Source: Candidatus Poribacteria bacterium (GTDB taxonomy: Bacteria > Poribacteria > WGA-4E > WGA-3G). Taken from it: DNA of 64,000 nucleotides. A program made the position numbers and the translations under genes. Shown in pieces: positions 1 through 55,009 of this stretch. The notes under the pieces were generated by a model. That model did not search any database. It was not told where the DNA came from and saw only the letters and a list, made by a program, of their open reading frames with translations. Numbering within the stretch: position 1 is the first letter of the stretch; each line of letters opens with the position of its first letter. The DNA is taken from positions 1 to 64,000 of the forward strand of contig JAJEET010000026.1 in assembly GCA_022820835.1 (NCBI GenBank). The letters run 5' to 3'.

Positions 1-468
1 TAATACGCACACCCCGATGTGTGATAACTTGAGCATATTTTCCAGATGGATAGAACTCAGCGGTGTCTCGCGCGGCACAAGAACAAGTTTACGTCGCTCC
101 TTAATACACACATCCGCGGCGCGTTGGATAAGGTTACGTGAGATACCACCAGCAATAGAAGCGATGCTCCCCATGCTACACGGCACCACAATCATCCCTT
201 CAGTCCGAAAAGAGCCGCTGGCAATCGGTGCGGCGATGTCCGATTCATGGTGATAAATAACCCGCGGTGAAGAAACGCCAATGAGCGACTCCAACTCGAA
301 ATTGTTGAGGTCAACTTCAATCTGAAGTTCTTCCGATAAGGCGCGCGCACCCGATGCCGAAATTGTTAAATGGACCTCTATAGCCTCATGTTCCGTAAGA
401 ACCTCAAGCAGGCGAACCGCATAGACACCTGCACTCGCGCCTGTTATTCCAACAATCAGTCGTTTCAA
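1..468 (-). CDS. ubiX: Flavin prenyltransferase UbiX-like (partial, 3' end outside window; TTG start)
   Basis: Reverse-strand translation LKRLIVGITGASAGVYAVRLLEVL...GSFRTEGMIVVPCSMGSIASIAGGISRNLIQRAADVCIKERRKLVLVPRETPLSSIHLENML matches UbiX/Pad1 motifs; runs off the left edge so absent from the ORF track. Confidence 0.9.
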   Translation of the reverse strand, partial: MKRLIVGITGASAGVYAVRLLEVLTEHEAIEVHLTISASGARALSEELQIEVDLNNFELESLIGVSSPRVIYHHESDIAAPIASGSFRTEGMIVVPCSMGSIASIAGGISRNLIQRAADVCIKERRKLVLVPRETPLSSIHLENMLKLSHIGVCVL

Positions 469-583
469 TGACTACATTCTCCTTCGCTTAAATTGCACAC
501 AACCGTTCGACGAGTAGATGTTCTCATAATCAACTCTATTATAGTTAGTTATGCGAAAATTACAAGGAAAACTTAACACTCCC

Positions 584-612
584 TTGACAGAAAAGCGTGC
601 AACAGGTAAATT
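584..612 (+). promoter_or_regulatory. Putative sigma-70 promoter, TTGACA-N17-TAAATT
   Basis: TTGACA at 584-589 and TAAATT at 607-612, 17-bp spacer, just upstream of the 637/670 CDS. Confidence 0.55.
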
Positions 613-669
613 ATGCGTAAGTCTATCTGATGTCATGTGTTGCTCGTAGACGCATATCGTGAGGAAATT

Positions 670-1713
670 ATGAACATAGATGCCTTAGACACGCCGACGC
701 TTGTTGCGGATCTGGATGTGCTTGAACAGAATATCAACGGGATGGCAGCGCATTGTCAGCAACTCGGTGTCCCGCTGCGTGTCCATACCAAAACGCATAA
801 AGTGCCAGAAATCGCTAAAATGCAGATCGCTGCCGGTTCGCGAGGTATCACCTGCCAGAAGTTAGGCGAGGCCGAGGTAATGGTAGATGCCGGAATTGAC
901 AACATACTGATCCCGTACAATATCGTTGGGAAACCGAAACTGAAACGGTTGACTGCGCTTATCCAACGCGCCCGAATTATCGTTGCCCTTGATTCCGAAG
1001 AGACCGCGACCGGCATCTCTCAACAGGCGATTGCTGACGGTTGTGTTGTGCCTGTAATTGTGGAACTCGATACCGGCAGTGGACGTTGTGGTGTGCAATC
1101 CCCGCAATCGGCACAACGCCTTGCACGACAAGTTATGAAAATGCAAGGCATTGATTTCCAAGGTATCATGACGTATCCGAGCAACGTGCGAGCGAAGCCG
1201 TTTATTGAAGAAACGCTTGATCTGCTCTCAAGCGACGGGATTCCTGTAAACATAATTAGTGGTGGCGGCACGGGTTCGGAAACCGCATCAAAGGAGATCG
1301 GCTGCACAGAGACCCGCAGCGGTTCTTATGTCTATGAAGGCATGACTCGCATCGGTAATTCGGAGATGCTAACACCTGAACGGTGTGTCTTACGCCTAAT
1401 CGTAACCGTCGTTAGTACGCCAGCACCTGACCGGATTATCATTGACGGTGGTCAAAAGACGTTTACGAGTTACCCGCCAACGCCTTATGGACATATTATT
1501 GAACAGCCAGACGCGAAGATTTACGGGATGTCGGTCGAACACGGGCATGTCAATGTCAGTGAATGTTCACACCAGTTTAAGGTCGGTGAACGGCTTTCGG
1601 TTATTCCACTCCATCAAGGGATGACGAGTAATCTGCACGACACACTCGTAGGTGTTCGCGGCGATGAAGTTGAGGTAACTTGGAAAATCGCAGGTAGAGG
1701 TAAAGTATTTTAA
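670..1713 (+). CDS. D-threonine aldolase / D-serine dehydratase-like PLP enzyme (alanine racemase N-terminal fold)
   Basis: MNIDALDTPTLVADLDVLEQNI...VHTKTHKVPEIAKMQ...GITCQKLGEAEVM; ORF opens at 637, internal ATG at 670 preferred. Confidence 0.85.
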   Translation: MNIDALDTPTLVADLDVLEQNINGMAAHCQQLGVPLRVHTKTHKVPEIAKMQIAAGSRGITCQKLGEAEVMVDAGIDNILIPYNIVGKPKLKRLTALIQRARIIVALDSEETATGISQQAIADGCVVPVIVELDTGSGRCGVQSPQSAQRLARQVMKMQGIDFQGIMTYPSNVRAKPFIEETLDLLSSDGIPVNIISGGGTGSETASKEIGCTETRSGSYVYEGMTRIGNSEMLTPERCVLRLIVTVVSTPAPDRIIIDGGQKTFTSYPPTPYGHIIEQPDAKIYGMSVEHGHVNVSECSHQFKVGERLSVIPLHQGMTSNLHDTLVGVRGDEVEVTWKIAGRGKVF

Positions 1714-1771
1714 TTTGGTGCGAAGCGTGCAAAAATAGTTTTTTATTCTAACACATCAAGAGGGGGAAATC

Positions 1772-2488
1772 ATGATTCTACCGACATCCGAACAGAAAAC
1801 ACAGTGGGAAGAAGAGGGGTATCTCGTTTTTGAAAACGCAATTCAAGGTGAAGATCTTAAGCGGCTCCAAAACGCTTTCGATTATTGGGCAGATGCGTGC
1901 AAAGAAGAATGGCTGGATAGAGTTGAAGCGGGGGATGCTGTCGCAACCTTCTATGACATCCCGAATCCGCTTGAAAAGGATCCGATTTTCATTGATATTA
2001 TTGACTATCCGAGTTATTACGGTGCGTTGATGGCGTTCACCGACCATGACCTAATTTTATTGGGTCCACAGGTTCGGACGGTGGCGCCGTGGCCTGTGAG
2101 TTACACAGGGTGGCATCCTGATGTCGGACAGAGTAACCCGCTCCATATCAAGGTGCAAATCTACGTCAATGATGTTGAACCGGGAGGTGGCGAATTCGGC
2201 TTTGTACCGGGCAGTCATAAACCGGGCGCGGGTCCCTATACGCGTCCGATGCGACAAGAGAGTATGACGGGACATAAGACGTTCCCGGGTAAAGCAGGTA
2301 CAGCGATTATGTTCAATTCCTGTGGATGGCACGTTTCGATGGACAATCATTCCGATACACCCCGTAAATCGATTATCCTGATCTACGAGAAACGAACACC
2401 CGGACGCATTGGACCAGAGCAGTTTGCTTCCATCTCAGAATATTGCCAGACCCCAGAACGTCGTAAATTGTTTAGCTTGGACGGTTAA
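1772..2488 (+). CDS. Phytanoyl-CoA dioxygenase (PhyH) family protein
   Basis: HxD motif in GWHPDVGQ, distal His in NSCGWHVSMDNHS, PGGGEFGFVPGSHKPG. Confidence 0.85.
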   Translation: MILPTSEQKTQWEEEGYLVFENAIQGEDLKRLQNAFDYWADACKEEWLDRVEAGDAVATFYDIPNPLEKDPIFIDIIDYPSYYGALMAFTDHDLILLGPQVRTVAPWPVSYTGWHPDVGQSNPLHIKVQIYVNDVEPGGGEFGFVPGSHKPGAGPYTRPMRQESMTGHKTFPGKAGTAIMFNSCGWHVSMDNHSDTPRKSIILIYEKRTPGRIGPEQFASISEYCQTPERRKLFSLDG

Positions 2489-2503
2489 TCAAAGGAGGGC
2501 ACT

Positions 2504-3397
2504 ATGCCACGCATTGACGCGCATCTGCACGTATTCACAAAAGCCTCCGCTGAGTTTCCGAGGGAGATATCGGACGTTTGGCCCGCTGAACGGGAAGAGC
2601 CTGTCGAAAAGTTGTTAGGCGAAATGGAGAAACACCAGATCGATCAGGCAGTTCTTGTCCAGATGGCTGGTGCGAGTATAGAAAACCATCGTTACCTGTT
2701 GCGATGCCTCAAAGAATATCCAAACCGATTTTTAGGGATTGGATTGGTTCCAGAGGGACATCCAAACCCTGTCGAACACATGGCAGCACTCACAGATGAT
2801 ACGGGGATTATCGGTTTTCGGTTCTCTACATTTGGGGGACCGCGTGATATTTTTGCGAAGATGGATGTCCGCGAGTTCGCGGCGTATCCGATCTGGGAGT
2901 GCGCTGCTGAACGCGATTATGTCTTGTGGCTTTATCCGAACGCTATCAATGCACATCTTCTGCCATACTTGATACAAGAATTCCCGCAGGTACGGATTGT
3001 GTTAAACCATCTCGCCGTGTGCCCGGGCGCAGGCAAATTCAGTTGGGATGAATTCGGGAGACCCCAGGTTCAGGTGACGGGTTACAACCTTTTTATGCAT
3101 ACGACCTATCGGCTCGCGCGCTTTGAAAATGTTAATGTGCATCTCTCTGGTCAGTACGCCTTTAGCAAGGAAGAATTTCCGTATAAAGATTTGGCAGGAT
3201 GGCACCATGGTCTTTTGGGTGGCTTTGGCGCGAAACGATTGATGTGGGCAACCGATTTTCCATGGATATTAGAAGAACCGGGGTATGGTAAACTTACCAC
3301 AGTTATAGAAGAATTACTACCCAATCTATCTGAAGCGGAGTTGGCGGATATTATGGGTGGGAATGCGAAACGGATTTTAAGGTTTCCTGACCTGTAG
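2504..3397 (+). CDS. Amidohydrolase family 2 (TIM-barrel metal-dependent hydrolase)
   Basis: N-terminal MPRIDAHLHVF, C-terminal RLMWATDFPWILEEPGYGK. Confidence 0.85.
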   Translation: MPRIDAHLHVFTKASAEFPREISDVWPAEREEPVEKLLGEMEKHQIDQAVLVQMAGASIENHRYLLRCLKEYPNRFLGIGLVPEGHPNPVEHMAALTDDTGIIGFRFSTFGGPRDIFAKMDVREFAAYPIWECAAERDYVLWLYPNAINAHLLPYLIQEFPQVRIVLNHLAVCPGAGKFSWDEFGRPQVQVTGYNLFMHTTYRLARFENVNVHLSGQYAFSKEEFPYKDLAGWHHGLLGGFGAKRLMWATDFPWILEEPGYGKLTTVIEELLPNLSEAELADIMGGNAKRILRFPDL

Positions 3398-3409
3398 AGA
3401 GGAGGCAGT

Positions 3410-3796
3410 TCAGAATCCGACGTTGGCTTGAAACGCGAAGGCGTTTTCAATCTGTTCCAGTTTTAGTAACTCTAACTGTGGAGATAAATGGATTGCGATA
3501 ACATCGAAACGGCAAGGTGCATCGAATCGGTTATGCGCCTGTAGATAGCCCATAGCGACTTTGGAAATCTGTCGTTGTTTCTGTGTCGTTACAGCTGCTT
3601 GTGGAGCCCCGAATTTGAGGCTACGTCGCGTTTTAACTTCCACAAAAACGATGCAATCACCATCTTGTGCGACAATATCTATTTCACCACGGACTGCTCG
3701 GTAATTCTGCGCGAGAATTTTATATCCGCGCGTTTTAAGATGCGTAGCCGCAAAGGACTCACCCGTTTTTGCGATGCTCAAGCGTGAATGATCCAT
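3410..3796 (-). CDS. yraN: YraN / UPF0102 family putative endonuclease
   Basis: TGESFAATHLKTRGYKILAQNYRAVRGEIDIVAQDGDCIVFVEVKTRRS; internal ATG at 3796 preferred because the longer ORF runs into a palindromic repeat. Confidence 0.9.
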   Translation of the reverse strand: MDHSRLSIAKTGESFAATHLKTRGYKILAQNYRAVRGEIDIVAQDGDCIVFVEVKTRRSLKFGAPQAAVTTQKQRQISKVAMGYLQAHNRFDAPCRFDVIAIHLSPQLELLKLEQIENAFAFQANVGF

Positions 3797-3877
3797 CCGT
3801 GTTTTCTCTTTTGCGAAATCCTGTATACGTGTGTCAGGTGGGGTTACATGAAGTTTAAGAAAATAAATCGGTAATTG

Positions 3878-3898
3878 GGCGAGGATACAATCCTCGCC
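3878..3898. repeat. REP-like palindrome GGCGAGGA-tacaa-TCCTCGCC
   Basis: Perfect 8-bp inverted repeat; related copies elsewhere in window. Confidence 0.7.
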
Positions 3899-3921
3899 TG
3901 CATGGAATTGTGTAAGTCCTA

Positions 3922-4515
3922 TCAATTATCGGGCAGTAGTTTGAAGGTCTGACGGTGAATATCCGATGCCCCGGACTGAGCGATTGCTTGCCGATGTTGG
4001 GATGTTGGGTATCCTTTGTGTTTTTGGAATCCGTAATTCGGATAGGTTCGATCGAATTCCATCATGATCCGATCTCGGGTGGTTTTGGCGATAATAGAGG
4101 CAGCCGCAATGGAATAACTTCGACTGTCGCCTTTTGGGATTGCTTCTGCTTGGATGTCTGTTGTCGGGAGATTTATACCGTCAATGAGGAGATAGTCTGG
4201 TTGAGGTGTGAGTTTTTCAATTGCCTTTTGCATCGCTAATAAAGTTGCTTTGAGAATGTTCAAACGGTCAATGACTCGGTTGTCCGCAGAACCGATCCCT
4301 ACGGACAGAGCGGTGTTATGGATTTCGTCAGCTAATCTGTCGCGTTGTTTTGGTGTTAGCTGCTTTGAATCTTTTAAGCCGTTGATGCTGCAATTGAGGG
4401 GTAAGATGACTGCGGCGGCAATGACGGGACCTGCCAATGCGCCTCGACCTGCCTCGTCAATGCCTGCAATCTGTTTGTAGCCGCTTTGTTGGCAAGCAAG
4501 CTCAAAAGCGTCCAT
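3922..4515 (-). CDS. rnhB: Ribonuclease HII
   Basis: IAGIDEAGRGALAGPVIAAAVIL, SIAAASIIAKTTRDRIM; ATG at 4515 lies just past the rplS stop. Confidence 0.95.
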   Translation of the reverse strand: MDAFELACQQSGYKQIAGIDEAGRGALAGPVIAAAVILPLNCSINGLKDSKQLTPKQRDRLADEIHNTALSVGIGSADNRVIDRLNILKATLLAMQKAIEKLTPQPDYLLIDGINLPTTDIQAEAIPKGDSRSYSIAAASIIAKTTRDRIMMEFDRTYPNYGFQKHKGYPTSQHRQAIAQSGASDIHRQTFKLLPDN

Positions 4516-4525
4516 CAGTATTGGG

Positions 4526-4870
4526 TTAGGTTCTGCGTTCTTTGACGCGTGCGGCTCTTCCAGTCCGGTTGCGCAAGTAATACAATTTCGCGCGTCGGAC
4601 AGCGCCGTAGCGGACGACTTGAATACTTTCAATGTTCGGTGAATGCAGCGGGAACGTCCGCTCACTGCCAGCACCGAAGGCGACGCGTCGGACTGTAAAG
4701 GTTGAACTCAGTCCGCCGTGTGCGCGACGGATAACAGTTCCTTCATAAGCTTGAATACGTTCCTTTTGCCCTTCACGGATGCGTGTATTCACCTTGACAA
4801 CATCACCCGGACCGAAATCGGGGATATCGCTCTTCATATATTGACTTTCGACGGATTCAATTAAATTCAT
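4526..4870 (-). CDS. rplS: 50S ribosomal protein L19
   Basis: [35 protein letters not shown]...[18 protein letters not shown]. Confidence 0.97.
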
Positions 4871-4936
4871 GGTTACTGCTCCTCTTGCGTAATATCTGCT
4901 TTAAGATTGCGTATGTAGGAAAGATTAATTTTCTGA

Positions 4937-5665
4937 TTATTCCGTTAATTCTGCCCCTTTGAGGATTGCGATATCCTCTTTGCTGAGTTCGAGCTTTTCG
5001 AGCAGATCGGGACGATATTTTGCCGTGCGTTTGAGTGCCTCAGCATATCTCCATTTTTCGATATTCTCGTGATGTCCGCTCAAGAGGACTTCAGGGACAT
5101 GCATTTCGGCGAACTTAGCGGGGCGTGTATAGTGTGGATGGTCAAGCAATTCCTGACTAAACGAATCGATGTGTGCAGATTCGTAGTCGCCGAGGGCGCC
5201 TGGAAGCACACGTCCGATAGCATCAATTAAAACGAGTGCTGCGATTTCGCCGCCACTCAAGACGTAATCCCCGATTGATACTTCAGTTGTTACCACTTTT
5301 TGACGTACGCGTTCATCCACGCCTTTGTAGCGTCCACAGAGAAGTATAAGATGCGACTCCAATGAGAGTGATTCTGCGAATCCTTGGGTTAGAGGTATCC
5401 CTTGAGGTGTTAGATAGACGACGTTTGCGGATTCCTCTGAATCCAACGCTTTGATGGCTGCGAAAATAGGTTCGGGTTTCAGGATCATCCCGGCACCGCC
5501 GCCGTACGGATAATCATCAACTGACTTGTGTTTATCGGTTGTCCAGTCTCGTAGGTTATGGAGATTGACGGCGAGTATATTAGCGTCATGAGCGCGTTTG
5601 AGTATCCCTGTCTTTAGTGCTGGAGCGATTATCTCTGGAAACAGGGCAATAACATCAATTTTCAT
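4937..5665 (-). CDS. trmD: tRNA (guanine37-N1)-methyltransferase
   Basis: [53 protein letters not shown]. Confidence 0.97.
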
Positions 5666-5693
5666 TTTTCTTGGCTTTCGGCTTTCGGCTATC

Positions 5694-5745
5694 AGCCGTC
5701 AGTTAAAGACGGACATAATAGTTCTAACGTCTTTTCTGACGGCTG
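5694..5745. repeat. Long inverted repeat (CAGCCGTCAGTTAAAGACG ... CGTCTTTTCTGACGGCTG)
   Basis: Arms near-perfectly complementary; fills the khpA-trmD gap. Confidence 0.7.
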
Positions 5746-5797
5746 GTTGCTGAAAGGAAAACCTGAGAGGTTTCCGTCCTGACTGCTATTCTCGAAT

Positions 5798-6049
5798 CTA
5801 TACATCCGACCTCGGTTCATCAATTAGCTCAAGAATTACCTTTTTATTTGCGCACAATCCAGCGGTATAGAGGACACTTCTAATTGCTTTCAGTGTCCGT
5901 CCGTATCTACCGATGATTTTTCCCAAATCCTCTTCTGTGACAGTCAATTCAATAATAACGACTGTTTCGCCAGTTACTTCTCGAACCACTACCTCATCGG
6001 GATAATCAACGAGAGATTTTACGATGTATTCAATTAAATCTTTGAACAT
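5798..6049 (-). CDS. khpA: KH-domain RNA-binding protein KhpA (YlqC/UPF0109)
   Basis: Small KH protein with VTEEDLGKIIGRYGRTLKAIRSVL between rpsP and trmD. Confidence 0.9.
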   Translation of the reverse strand: MFKDLIEYIVKSLVDYPDEVVVREVTGETVVIIELTVTEEDLGKIIGRYGRTLKAIRSVLYTAGLCANKKVILELIDEPRSDV

Positions 6050-6102
6050 GGTTCACTTTTGGATTTCAGTAGATGCGTCCGCCACCTGTGTTTTCGTTGG
6101 TG

Positions 6103-6513
6103 TTATTCTTCTTCCTCTGCGGATTCGTCTGGTGTTGCTTCAGTCAGCAATGCGCCAGTTTCGGATTCTGTTTCTTCTACGCCTGTGTGTTCGGTATTGT
6201 CCGTTTCCTCGACTGTTTGATCGGTTTCATCTTCTGGCATGGGTCTCCCCAATTTTTCGTATTCAAATTTCATGAGGATCCCACTTTTGGAAAGTAAACG
6301 CTTTGCTGTATCCGAAGGCTGTGCGCCGCGTCGTAACCATTTTAAAGCTTTCTCCTCATCGATGACCACATCTGCGGGGTCCGTTAGCGGGTCGTAATAA
6401 CCGAGGCGTTCTAAGAAGGCGCCATCTCTCTGTGCGCGCGCGTCAGCCGCAACGAGTCGATAGAACGGACGTTTTTTCCGACCGTGTCGTTGTAATCTAA
6501 TTCTAACTGCCAA
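6103..6513 (-). CDS. rpsP: 30S ribosomal protein S16 with acidic C-terminal extension
   Basis: [42 protein letters not shown]; long Glu/Asp/Thr-rich tail. Confidence 0.96.
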
Positions 6514-6588
6514 AAATTACCTCCCAGTGGTATTTGTGCCACTTTATCTAAAATTAAAGGTGTGATCCCGGGGCGGTTCGCCGAGGTG

Positions 6589-8001
6589 CTATCTACGGCG
6601 TTTTCGTTTTCGAGGCTTTCTTGCTTTCCGTTTTGGACGGGGCATTGCGCCGATCCTCTGCCCCATTTTTTTACCGGAGGATGCTCCCATCCCCGGCATT
6701 GCCATCGCCGTCTGCTGGTTTAACATCCGATTCATCATCTGGAGCTGTGAAACCAGCATGTTGATCTGATTGACCGTCGTTCCACTGCCTTTGGAAATAC
6801 GGAGTTTCCGACTTCTATCTAACAATCGAGGGTTCTTACGTTCCTCAAGCGTCATGGATTGGATGATCGCCTTGGTCCGGCTCAAATGGCTCTCATCGGG
6901 TGTAAGGTCTTTAATCGGCAACTGGTTCTTAAAGGGCATTAAATCCATCAATTGATCTAAGGGCCCCATATTTTTAAGTTGCTCTAACTGTGTCAAAAAG
7001 TCGTCGAAATCGAGACCTTTGTTTTCTATAAGTTTACGTTCAAGTTCTTTTGCTTGATCTTCGCTGAATACCTCTTCCGCTTTTTCGATGAGCGTTTGCA
7101 CATCACCTTGTCCAAGGATACGCGAAGACATTCGTTCTGGATGGAACTCTTCGAGTGAGGCTGCCTCAATTTTTTCACCGACACCGATGAATTTGATCGG
7201 TTTCTGTGTGATATGACGAATCGAGAGTGCTGCGCCACCGCGGGCATCGCCGTCCATTTTCGTGAGAATAACGCCGTCAATGTCTAAGTCATTATTGAAA
7301 TTTTCAGCGACGTTTACGGCATCTTGTCCGGTCATTGCATCGACAATGAGCAGGATTTCAGTGGGGTTAACGCTTGCTCGGATCTGCCGAAGTTCACCCA
7401 TTAATTCATCGTTAACGTGTAATCGTCCTGCGGTATCAATGATAACGTAATTATTTCCGTGTGCTAACGCTTCTTTGACAGAAGCTTCTGCGATCTTGAC
7501 GGGTGAAACGTCAGTTCCCATTGAGAACACCGGCGTTTCTGTCTGCTCACCGAGGATTTGTAGCTGCTTAATAGCAGCCGGACGGTAGACATCAGCTGCA
7601 ACGAGTAGCGGTTTCCGCCCGTCTTTGCGAAATCTAAGTGCCAATTTTGCTGCTACGGTTGTCTTACCGGCACCCTGTAAACCGACAAGCATTACGATTG
7701 TGGGACCGCTCGGTGCGATACGAATTTTTTCCGCCTCGTTGCCCATCAATTGTGTGAGTTCTTCACCAATAATTTGGGCAATCTGTAGTTCAGGCGTGAG
7801 GCTTCCGAGGACCTCTTGGCCGAGTGCGCGCGCTTTGATCCGATCTGTAAATTCACGTGTGACCTTATAGTTGACATCAGCTTCGAGGAAAGCACGCCGT
7901 ACCTCGCGCAAGGTATCAGAGATGTTATTTTCTGTGAGTTTTCCTTGACCTTTCAATTTCTTGAAGGTGTTTTGTAACCTATCGCTTAAACTTTCAAACA
8001 T
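6589..8001 (-). CDS. ffh: Signal recognition particle protein Ffh
   Basis: NG-domain GTPase motifs (GLQGAGKTT, DTAGR, TKMDGDARGG), Met-rich M domain, basic tail. Confidence 0.97.
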   Translation of the reverse strand: MFESLSDRLQNTFKKLKGQGKLTENNISDTLREVRRAFLEADVNYKVTREFTDRIKARALGQEVLGSLTPELQIAQIIGEELTQLMGNEAEKIRIAPSGPTIVMLVGLQGAGKTTVAAKLALRFRKDGRKPLLVAADVYRPAAIKQLQILGEQTETPVFSMGTDVSPVKIAEASVKEALAHGNNYVIIDTAGRLHVNDELMGELRQIRASVNPTEILLIVDAMTGQDAVNVAENFNNDLDIDGVILTKMDGDARGGAALSIRHITQKPIKFIGVGEKIEAASLEEFHPERMSSRILGQGDVQTLIEKAEEVFSEDQAKELERKLIENKGLDFDDFLTQLEQLKNMGPLDQLMDLMPFKNQLPIKDLTPDESHLSRTKAIIQSMTLEERKNPRLLDRSRKLRISKGSGTTVNQINMLVSQLQMMNRMLNQQTAMAMPGMGASSGKKMGQRIGAMPRPKRKARKPRKRKRRR

Positions 8002-8272
8002 GGTCTCTGTATCCTTTTTTATTGGCGCGAACTGTGATAACGAGCCACACTTTGTAGAAAAAAAAGCAGAAGTTATCCTATCTTTTGGTGTTTACCAAGA
8101 AGTGCTATGACAACAGGCAAAATCGTTCAGAGATATACTAACCCCTAATTATACAATTATAGCAAATTTTACCACTGATGTCAAACTTTTTTTCGTGAAG
8201 CCGTCATCCATCAAATGTTAGTGGTAACTTTTCCTGCTTGACACGGATCGTTATTTGTGTGAAAATATAACT

Positions 8273-9364
8273 ATGAAAACAGTTAATACTCAACAACAAC
8301 ATCAGAAAACCACACCTTATGCTGTGCTAATTTGCTTCATCTGTGTTCTGACAGGTTTCTACTGCGGGTGCCAAGGCGAAACTTCCAACTTGGATGTAGG
8401 GGGTGCCGGTTTTGAAATCTTAGAGAAATCAGGTGAACTGACAGAAAATGAGATATGGAATGGACGGGTCTATATTACCAACACTGTCACTATACCAGAG
8501 GGTGTCACGTTGACGATTCGGGCTGGAACTATCGTCGGTTTTGAACCGATGGAAACACCGAGCCTACTTATTGTGAAGGGTGAAGTTTACGCCGAAGGAT
8601 CACCAGATCGGATGATCGTCTTTGGATCCTTGGGCAAGCAACGGACACAGGAACAAGAACCAGCAGCGGAGGCAACCTCGTCTCCATTTGGCACTGACAC
8701 ATCTCTAAGGAATCAACGAAGGAGCGGCAGCGGAGCGGTCGCGAATACCGTAAAAGCGGATCCACCGAAATCGGGAGATTGGGGAGGTATCCTGATTGAA
8801 GCCACAAGTCCGAATTGCCGTCTGACCTACACTCGCATCCAGCACGCGAATGTCGGCATCAGGATCCGTACAGACGCAGTGCAAATTGAGAGATGTCTTT
8901 TTGGTGAGAATAGAACAGGCATAATTTGCGAAAACACGAATCCGACGATCAGCAGTAGCGAATTTAATAGAAATGGTATAGGTTCCAAATTCCAAGGGAG
9001 TGCGGCGCCAGATGTAGAATACAACGAGTTTACCGCCAACCAATACGGGGTTGTATGTGAAGATGACTCGCGCCCGCGTATCCAGTATAATATCCTCCGT
9101 GCGAATTACGAAAACGCGATTATTTGTTATTCTACTGCGTCCCCGGAAATTGTATCTAATAACATTACAAATAACGTCGGTTGGGCGGTCTACGATGGGG
9201 GGCGGCTCCGAGATAATTTTATTCAAGGGAATAAACAGGTTGGAGGTAATATCACGGAACTCGGCATCGGTACACAGAGCGATCAGTTTTTCGGTGTAGA
9301 CGAAGCGTTTGAACCGAGGAATTCTCCGGTAGCGGAAGCAGGCGTGCCGCGCGATAATTTTTAG
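8273..9364 (+). CDS. Secreted right-handed parallel beta-helix repeat protein (putative lipoprotein)
   Basis: Hydrophobic N-terminus ending FYCGC; GRVYITNTVTIPEGVTLTIRAGTIVGF; repeated short beta-helix coils. Confidence 0.75.
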   Translation: MKTVNTQQQHQKTTPYAVLICFICVLTGFYCGCQGETSNLDVGGAGFEILEKSGELTENEIWNGRVYITNTVTIPEGVTLTIRAGTIVGFEPMETPSLLIVKGEVYAEGSPDRMIVFGSLGKQRTQEQEPAAEATSSPFGTDTSLRNQRRSGSGAVANTVKADPPKSGDWGGILIEATSPNCRLTYTRIQHANVGIRIRTDAVQIERCLFGENRTGIICENTNPTISSSEFNRNGIGSKFQGSAAPDVEYNEFTANQYGVVCEDDSRPRIQYNILRANYENAIICYSTASPEIVSNNITNNVGWAVYDGGRLRDNFIQGNKQVGGNITELGIGTQSDQFFGVDEAFEPRNSPVAEAGVPRDNF

Positions 9365-9377
9365 TAGGAATTGAGAT

Positions 9378-10301
9378 ATGTCCCGCTTCAGAGCCTATCT
9401 TGACCTGGTTCGTTACCCACTCTTTGCGATTCCGATTGTCGCGACACTTCCAGGCGCGCTCATCGCGAGCCACGGACGGTTCACATGGCGCGTTGCAGTG
9501 GCACTGATAGTTGCACTGTTCGGCTATTTCGCTGGTATGATAAAAAATGACTACTTCCACCACGAAACAGATAAGCAAACGAACCCTGAACGTCCACTTC
9601 CATCCGAACGCCTCACTCCGAAGCAAGCAATTGTTCCGGCAAGCGTTATATACGGTTTTTGTGTCATCGGCGGTTTTTTGCTCAATCTTAAAACAGGCTT
9701 ATTGGTGATGGGGTTGGTGTCGATTTCGCATCTCTACAACGCCATTTTTAAGGCGAAAGGGATTTTAGGGAGTCTCACGTTACCACTCGGGATCGGCTTA
9801 CTGAGCGTCTTCGGTGCGTTGGCTGTTAGTGGAGCAGTACCGCGTCTGGTGTGGTACGCCTTCGCTGCGACAACGCTTTACGATTTAGGGACACACATCA
9901 CGACGACCTTCAAAGACATTTCACGCGACAAAGAACTCGGCATCTTAACGACACCTATTCAGATTGGTGTTCGTCCAGCACTTTTGGTCTCTGCGGTGGC
10001 AACGGTACTCGCTTTCGCTATTGCTCTTCTGCCATACTGGTTGGAACCAGACGTTCAGAAGACTTATATCGTTTGGGTGGTTTTAGGCATCATCGCCACT
10101 GTCGGTACGCGTATCTCGCTCTACCTACAACCGAATGAAAAGAACGGCTATTTTGCGCTGAAGGGTTCGATGGTGGGTTCTATTCTCTTTTTTCCGTGCC
10201 TTATCGGTGTGCAGGTGTCTATTGTTGTTTCTGCAGCAGTTATCCTGCCGTTGCTATTGATTACACTCTTTCTGCTAAAAACGACGCGCCAAGAGGTTTA
10301 A
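9378..10301 (+). CDS. UbiA-family prenyltransferase (membrane)
   Basis: Multi-TM; KNDYFHHETDKQTNPERPLPSERLTPKQA resembles the UbiA NDxxDxxxD region. Confidence 0.75.
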   Translation: MSRFRAYLDLVRYPLFAIPIVATLPGALIASHGRFTWRVAVALIVALFGYFAGMIKNDYFHHETDKQTNPERPLPSERLTPKQAIVPASVIYGFCVIGGFLLNLKTGLLVMGLVSISHLYNAIFKAKGILGSLTLPLGIGLLSVFGALAVSGAVPRLVWYAFAATTLYDLGTHITTTFKDISRDKELGILTTPIQIGVRPALLVSAVATVLAFAIALLPYWLEPDVQKTYIVWVVLGIIATVGTRISLYLQPNEKNGYFALKGSMVGSILFFPCLIGVQVSIVVSAAVILPLLLITLFLLKTTRQEV

Positions 10302-52990: not shown

Positions 52991-53676
52991 ATGGAAACTT
53001 CCCCAAACGTGCGTCGTCCGCCTTATGCACCCACAGAAATGGAAGAAGAACTCTACCCGGAATCGGATGGTAAACCCATGGCTGACACAGACCTCCACCT
53101 TTATTGGATAAAGCGTGTGCAGGATATGCTCGAAACTTATCTTTCGCAGGACCCAGGGATCTACATCTCTGGGAATATTATGATGTATGACATAAAGGGC
53201 CCGATGCGAACCGCTGTCTCGCCCGATATTCTTGTCGCTTTCGGGCTCGGACAGAAGTTCCGCCGCACCTATAAGGTATGGGAAGAAGGAAAACCCCAGA
53301 TTTCGTGATGGAGTTTTCCAGTAAGAGGACCTATCGAAATGATTTAGATGAGAAGATGGCACTCTATGCGCGTATGAACATTCCAGAGTATTTCCGCTAT
53401 GATTCAGATAGAAGATATCTACCCTCGCCGCTACTCGGGTTTCGGCTTGTTGAAGGTAAGTATGTTGAGATTGCGCCAGACGTTGATGCAGCGATACATT
53501 CAGAGATATTGGCTCTGAATTTCCATTTAACGGAAGAGGGTCTCACGCTTTACGATCCCCAATCAGAACGGTGGCTACAAACCCTTGCAGAACAAGAAGC
53601 GGCAGCCCGACAGAAGGCTGAAGCAGAAGTCGCGCGACTCCAAGCAGAACTTGAACGCTTGAAGGAACGCGGGTAA
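52991..53676 (+). pseudogene. Uma2 family (DUF820) endonuclease-like gene with a single -1 frameshift
   Basis: ORFs 52991-53308 and 53278-53676 join as RTYKVWEEGKP|PDFVMEFSSKRTYRNDLDEKMALYARMNIPEYFRYD at AAAACCCC (53290-53297). Confidence 0.85.
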
Positions 53677-53830
53677 TACCATATCTACATGTAGCATAAC
53701 CTGTTAGGTTGTGCAATGTCTGAAGGCACGTCGTATTTGGGCGAGTACGCCGCAGAATTGCCCTACTACGAACTGAATTTGCTTTTAATCTGAAAATGGA
53801 CAACCCATTGTACCCCCTTGGAGGATAGCA

Positions 53831-55009
53831 ATGAATCAACGGAAAATAAAAAGGGGGCAGCAAGCTTTGGATTCAAACTGCTTTGAATTTAGCGAGATAG
53901 ACCCGTTTAACCCCCAAAACCACGTTGAAGGACAGATCAGTTTCAGTAAAGATAGACGCTACGGCGCGCTACAGATAAAAAAGATCAATGGTGAGCCTAT
54001 TGATCAGCCTTTAATCCTCGGCACGCCGAAAATTGCTTACCCTTTTGGATTAGGACATAATTACCGGTTTCCGAGTGCAGAGCGGATTTACCGTTTCCGC
54101 AAATACGACGGCACCAACATTTTTATGTACCGCTACGCATATAACGGACTAAAATACATCACATTTAAGGTGCGCTTGTTTCCGTTTTTGCGAGGTCGCT
54201 ATATAACAATGTGGCAGCATATCCGCCGAAAATACCCACAGATTACAGAACTGTTCAAATTGAATCCCGATGTTACAGGTTTCAGTTTTGAACTCTATGG
54301 GTCGGATAACCCGCATACGATTCAATACGAAGATGTCAAGTTGGATATTGTGTTATTGTTCGGACTGCGCGGGCGGCAGGGACAAATCGTGCTGAATACC
54401 GAACTTGAGGCAGGCGACATCCCGAAAGCAGAACACCTCGGCACCGTTGAGAAAGACTATGTATGGCACTACGAGCAGGAACAACAAGACCTTGATAGGC
54501 GATTGGAGTTCATCGGCTTGAATGAGAACCAAGCCCCCATATTTAAAGGTGAGGAAGGCAGCATCTGGTATGTGAAAACAAAGGGGACGCATGAAATCCG
54601 GCCGTATAAGTGCAAACCGCATCGAATTGAACAAGTGCATTGGACACAAGGACTGACGCAGCTGAGTGCGACTGTAATTTGGGCTACTATTCTGAAGGCT
54701 TTTGAAAATTGGGAAAATCCCGAACTTGACGAGATTATTGCGATATTAAACGAAGATTACCCCATCCATCAAATCATGATCTCAATGGAACAGATCAAAC
54801 AGATGTTTAAGACTGCTAAAAATACTGCGGACACCGAAAGGGAAATTTGGGAACTCATGGTAATGCATGCCTTCGATGGTAACACCGACACAGCAACAGT
54901 ATTCCACAAAATCGCAAACCGATTTGATCAGGACAAGAGACTCGTCTATAAAGCGATTAAGAACGTCCAAAAAATGATGAAGATCGAAATGAACGAATAT
55001 GCGTCGTAA
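53831..55009 (+). CDS. Putative ATP-dependent RNA ligase-like nucleotidyltransferase
   Basis: Motif I K91-YDGTN, motif III FSFELYG, IIIa-like KLDIVLLFGL, motif IV EEGSIWYVK, motif V YKCK in correct order. Confidence 0.7.
   Translation: MNQRKIKRGQQALDSNCFEFSEIDPFNPQNHVEGQISFSKDRRYGALQIKKINGEPIDQPLILGTPKIAYPFGLGHNYRFPSAERIYRFRKYDGTNIFMYRYAYNGLKYITFKVRLFPFLRGRYITMWQHIRRKYPQITELFKLNPDVTGFSFELYGSDNPHTIQYEDVKLDIVLLFGLRGRQGQIVLNTELEAGDIPKAEHLGTVEKDYVWHYEQEQQDLDRRLEFIGLNENQAPIFKGEEGSIWYVKTKGTHEIRPYKCKPHRIEQVHWTQGLTQLSATVIWATILKAFENWENPELDEIIAILNEDYPIHQIMISMEQIKQMFKTAKNTADTEREIWELMVMHAFDGNTDTATVFHKIANRFDQDKRLVYKAIKNVQKMMKIEMNEYAS

Follow-up and report, generated by a model that had tools for sequence, protein, structure and literature searches.

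Here we report that the gene at positions 53831–55009 (+) of a 64-kb window (the whole stretch of DNA analysed, part of contig C155 in a 5.4-Mb Candidatus Poribacteria assembly) encodes, with high confidence, an RNA ligase. The product represents a previously unnamed branch of the T4 RNA ligase 1 (Rnl1) type, a finding of moderate novelty about a known kind of enzyme. The protein is almost certainly an ATP-dependent RNA-joining enzyme. Our preferred reading of the whole, which we consider reasonably probable, is that it is an Rnl1-like ligase of phage origin that joins 5′-phosphate and 3′-hydroxyl RNA ends, most likely sealing tRNAs broken by nucleases. The Rnl1-type assignment draws on the motifs, the predicted fold and a profile match, with an intein in motif V and the gene context in phage carriers also counted. 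Phage RNA ligases serve as laboratory tools and as evidence of RNAs cut in infected bacteria, and the present family, carried chiefly by large phages that have not been cultivated and retained in the chromosomes of some Poribacteria, was encountered nowhere else in this analysis.

The gene begins with ATG and follows a ribosome-binding site recognized from the sequence (GGAGG, 53821–53825, +), which ends about 5 nt 5′ of the start. Its product (hereafter referred to as P0001) consists of 392 residues, and all of its features lie on the forward strand. The N-terminal domain (residues 1 to 82; 53831–54076) contains the invariant pairs P66-K67 and Y70-P71 and is followed by motif I, KYDGTN (54101–54118), in which K91 is the predicted adenylylated lysine and K91, D93 and G94 are invariant in 26 of 26 aligned family members. 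Downstream lie a motif Ia-like segment, K113-V-R115-L116 (54167–54178; K113, R115 and L116 invariant in all 26), motif III, FSFELYG (54281–54301; E154 and G157 likewise), a motif IIIa-like segment, KLDIVLLFGL (residues 170 to 179; 54338–54367; L176 and F177 invariant), motif IV, EEGSIWYVK (54551–54577; E242 and G243 invariant in all 26), and motif V, YKCKP (54605–54619; K260 and K262 invariant). The all-helical C-terminal domain (residues 264 to 392; 54620–55006) contains the invariant residues H270, E292, L306 and E308, and Y166, Y247 and P263 are invariant in the same alignment, which spans identities down to about 27%. The earlier note had described a 392-residue frame with the K91 codon at 54101, FSFELYG near 54281, EEGSIWYVK at 54551–54577 and YKCK at 54605–54616, and all of these positions are right.

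The ORF is a real gene and not a chance reading frame, because it has orthologues, low dN/dS ratios (about 0.09–0.16, pairwise between intact chromosomal copies) and invariant catalytic residues. Searched alone, P0001 had no PHROGs, NCBIfam or PDB sequence match and no Pfam match above the cut-off, and single-sequence searches of viral contigs, phages and plasmids returned nothing significant. A weak Pfam match to Lipid_DES, covering about 14 residues and below the cut-off, was dismissed as chance. Downstream, an ABC-transporter permease gene (PF00528; 54999–55850, +) shares 11 bp with the ligase gene and lies outside the system; a joint role of the two was rejected, as in some relatives 0.2–3 kb of other DNA separates them. 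Just upstream, positions 53278–53676 (+) hold a short Uma2-type nuclease fragment that matches only the end of the profile; the ORF before it, which has no family match, may be the other half. There are no tRNA genes within the 64-kb window.

The protein had been described as an orphan, a label that does not stand, as both large uncultivated phages and Poribacteria carry relatives of it. Family matches occur in 19 of the 85 genomes of the Poribacteria phylum, and the ligase is present at least partly in 14 of the 38 genomes of the host genus: nine, including the host, have an unbroken, near-full-length copy (78–92% protein identity for the eight from other species), in one the copy is split across the ends of two contigs, and four have fragments only. 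Remoter copies were found in G029 (46% identity), G028 (about 42%) and G005 (about 32%). Used as the query, an alignment of divergent copies retrieved 11 virus loci, and an alignment of those retrieved 24, the two sets largely overlapping; the viral carriers comprise about 24 uncultivated phage contigs in records of 6 to 545 kb, several of them large. A tblastn search of 50,697 GenBank phage records with nine family members as queries gave no match within the limits used. The copy in G028 is part of a contig of 144 kb that we assign to a phage because it matches terminase, portal, major head protein and head maturation protease. This contig (G028:C1, 143,886 bases; L040, L041 and L143–L148) also holds, as judged by eye, QueE-like, GTP cyclohydrolase-like and TGT/DpdA-like genes of queuosine type, together with ribonucleotide reductase, thymidylate synthase, a tmRNA and two RNA ligases, and its DnaE resembles that of the host, with about 67% identity along 2.3 kb of DNA. 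In G034 (L031/L010/L023), a second, degenerate C-terminal ligase fragment lies near the main copy, and a similar fragment occurs alone in G032 (L019).

The motifs of the nucleotidyltransferase superfamily (K-x-D-G in motif I, E in motif III, EG in motif IV and K-x-K in motif V) are conserved in all 26 members, and an AlphaFold model of P0001 built with 26 sequences (pLDDT 88.7, pTM 0.79) predicts a nucleotidyltransferase fold. An earlier model, built with 12 close homologues, was of inadequate quality (pLDDT 65.8), and we discarded the ranking obtained with it, in which Rnl3 enzymes came first. A Foldseek search of the PDB placed T4 Rnl1 first (2C5U; E 3.8e-10, 419 alignment columns), followed by archaeal RNA ligases (5D1O and 2VUG), T4 Rnl2, a Candida (fungal) tRNA ligase domain and a Naegleria RNA ligase. 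Apart from that Candida domain and an Aquifex protein labelled ‘putative DNA ligase’, whose rank falls amid the archaeal RNA ligases, the best 36 matches are RNA or tRNA ligases; true DNA ligases begin at an E value of about 5e-3. Significance was reached by RNA-ligase structures only. Among viral predicted structures, most of the named top matches are RNA ligases, including RnlA proteins. The predicted fold and the invariance of K91, K260 and K262 bear out the earlier proposal of a covalent nucleotidyltransferase, and the structural matches bear out that of an RNA ligase rather than a DNA ligase. As motifs I–V are common to the whole class, a function in RNA capping or protein adenylylation, by a covalent nucleotidyltransferase other than a polynucleotide ligase, might be considered; we regard it as highly improbable, given that the motif set and the fold match RNA ligases and that no capping enzyme appears among the 50 structural matches listed. 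The overall TM-scores are modest (0.45–0.48), indicating that the domains are either placed differently from those of T4 Rnl1 or mis-modelled, and we therefore limit the structural claim to the class of fold and to which relative is nearest, with no close match.

The kinship with T4 Rnl1 is also detectable at the profile level. We gathered 33 loci of T4 Rnl1 relatives and aligned 18 of them with the T4 protein; comparison of our family with the resulting 19-sequence profile gave an E value of 8e-6 (84% probability), and the catalytic core alone gave 3e-6 (hhalign), as compared with 0.25–0.3 for reversed full-length control profiles. The profile was needed, as hhalign against the lone T4 Rnl1 sequence was not significant. 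Motifs I, III, IV and V are in register with those of the T4 Rnl1 relatives, and H270 lies eight residues past K262, as does the invariant H250 of T4 Rnl1 relative to K242. Taken alone, neither the N-terminal domain (E 0.5) nor the C-terminal domain (E 0.084) reaches significance by sequence. The full-length profile alignment continues through the C-terminal domain, and position and fold suggest that both domains are homologous to those of T4 Rnl1. The C-terminal domain had been called helical and uncharacterised: its helical nature is retained in our model, but it is not without parallel, because T4 Rnl1 also has an all-helical domain right after motif V. Divergent family members match PHROG 562 (RNA ligase 1; 3e-11), PF09511 (5.5e-6) and PF09414 (3.8e-5), the matches to PHROG 562 and PF09511 coming from divergent phage members only and not from P0001 itself.

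In one phage homologue (L055, a 181-kb virus record; 7959–10157), an in-frame LAGLIDADG intein splits motif V of the ligase between C and K. Such a position, within a working active site, is usual for inteins. Elsewhere, in a genome of the Poribacteria class (G005:C528; L043:2102–3662), an intein-like sequence apparently interrupts motif I of a PF09414 RNA ligase. In a further locus (L065, about 83–8199), five HNH-type proteins that are related to one another lie dispersed about the ligase gene, which suggests a family of mobile endonucleases.

Within the genus, the ligase gene occupies a single chromosomal site, upstream of the ABC permease gene, and it is decayed or absent in many species. 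Ten sampled genus genomes that lack it keep the downstream permease gene with no detectable remnant of the ligase, and G076 shows a near-precise empty site, with the two flanks nearly meeting. In the tree, the G028 phage copy groups with the copies from this family of bacteria in one clade (100/100), with G005 apart; the phage copy is sister to the chromosomal copies, and the rest of the family is otherwise viral. A phage origin of the chromosomal ligase is the simplest reading, although we infer the direction of transfer from an unrooted tree. The patchy distribution, with four of the 14 carriers in the genus holding fragments only, and the clean absences would also fit a phage-derived relic that arrived in a single event, has been drifting out and is now functionless in Poribacteria. 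We consider this very unlikely, as the intact copies, at the dN/dS ratios given above, are under purifying selection, or were until recently, and their active-site residues are invariant. In our preferred reading of a retained phage enzyme, an ancestor of the genus would have gained the ligase at one locus, and selection still maintains the gene in roughly one species in four. The locus offers a fair case of a bacterium retaining a phage RNA-repair enzyme under selection, to its presumed benefit.

Phage carriers of the ligase frequently encode further RNA-repair genes. tRNA genes lie near it in 7 of 20 virus loci, and in one (L053) it sits inside a tRNA array; 8 of 18 virus records, as well as the G028 phage contig, also encode a second ligase of the PF09414 type that scores above the cut-off. 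RlaP is found in 8 of 20 virus records, equivalent to 8 of the 10 above 60 kb, but we rejected this co-occurrence as family-specific support, as 13 of 17 T4-like phages also have RlaP above the cut-off. No neighbouring gene was found to be conserved among the 20 virus loci. A survey of jumbo phages reads such RNA-repair sets as mending tRNAs cut by host defence (PMC7824862). In the 545-kb virus record that contains L048, a PF09414 match (G087:C1:322883–323353) lies inside an extraordinarily long open frame of 14,712 residues.

In the mechanism that we infer from the chemistry of the enzyme family, K91 would take AMP from ATP and pass it to the 5′-phosphate of a broken RNA, whereupon a 3′-hydroxyl partner would close the bond. 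The helical C-terminal domain would probably pick the RNA, like its counterpart in T4 Rnl1, which confers tRNA specificity according to a title in the reference list of PMC11494293. The selected RNA would most likely be a tRNA cut in the anticodon loop, and in large phages the ligase may repair host tRNAs cut by defence nucleases.

The carriers of the family differ from T4 in their end-healing genes. As the earlier note had stated, no end-healing partner was found close to the gene; its report of no RtcB nearby likewise holds at the locus, yet RtcB is present elsewhere in the host genome. The T4-type Pnkp phosphatase (HAD_PNKP) was found in none of 18 virus records, some of them fragmentary, and in none of the 85 Poribacteria genomes, whereas the same search detected it in 15 of 17 T4-like records as a positive control. 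P-loop kinase (AAA_33) matches occur in a few carriers. The missing phosphatase implies that other enzymes prepare the ends or that the breaks already carry 5′-phosphate and 3′-hydroxyl groups, and the breaks on which the family acts may be of another kind. A more far-reaching proposal, which we hold as possible but doubtful, is that these stand-alone RNA-repair ligases form a family of their own next to Rnl1 to Rnl5. Their particular N- and C-terminal domains would then recognize another type of RNA break, T4-type Pnkp would not be needed, and bacteria would have acquired the enzymes from phages and retained them, possibly for protection from defence nucleases or from toxins that cut RNA.

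A ligase of the same class might instead seal or circularize single-stranded RNA, such as rRNA fragments or small RNAs, as archaeal Rnl3-type enzymes do; the Thermococcus enzyme acts on C/D box sRNA (PMC9014305). The carriers without T4-type Pnkp would suit such a substrate, and the Rnl3 structures (Pab1020, 2VUG; MthRnl, 5D1O; Palaeococcus, 8UCE) rank just behind T4 Rnl1, and first with the poorer model. Like P0001, they have an N-terminal domain, a catalytic lysine at about residue 91–97 and a helical C-terminal part, and their Foldseek match is near full length; no sequence match to the Rnl3 PDB chains was found. However, in the P. abyssi enzyme, a separate β-containing dimerization domain follows motif V and precedes the helices of the C-terminal part (PMC4606414), whereas the P0001 model has only helices and no strands after residue 261. 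The predicted architecture therefore favours Rnl1 over Rnl3, and as the phage carriers moreover suggest repair during conflict, we consider a non-tRNA substrate rather unlikely and retain broken tRNA as the preferred one.

T4 Rnl2/Rnl5-type enzymes (PF09414) share the catalytic fold and motifs, and some family members match PF09414 weakly (below the cut-off, with none above 27 bits in the members scanned), but their T4_Rnl2_C (PF18043) or OB-fold domain is missing here. PF18043 is absent from the family members scanned and present in the separate Rnl2 of the virus carrying L053; the PF09414 enzyme of these phages is a second ligase, encoded separately. Most phage ligases are Rnl1 or Rnl2, and divergent versions, with named actinophage examples, are rare (PMC7824862); these, known here by description only, resemble our family in their large-phage home and their place outside both main families. 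T4 Rnl1 (RnlA; PF09511, PHROG 562) differs in its low identity (about 11% in the structural alignment), in having RPMEKFF before motif I where our family has TPK-x2-YPF, in a motif III of FEFVA rather than FELYG, and in the Pnkp phosphatase that carriers of our family lack. It nevertheless shares the order and spacing of motifs I–V, a motif III region of the FE-x5-N-x-I-x2-Y type, a helical C-terminal domain that the model places immediately after motif V, a similar length (374 residues, as compared with 392) and a phage home, and it is the best structural match.
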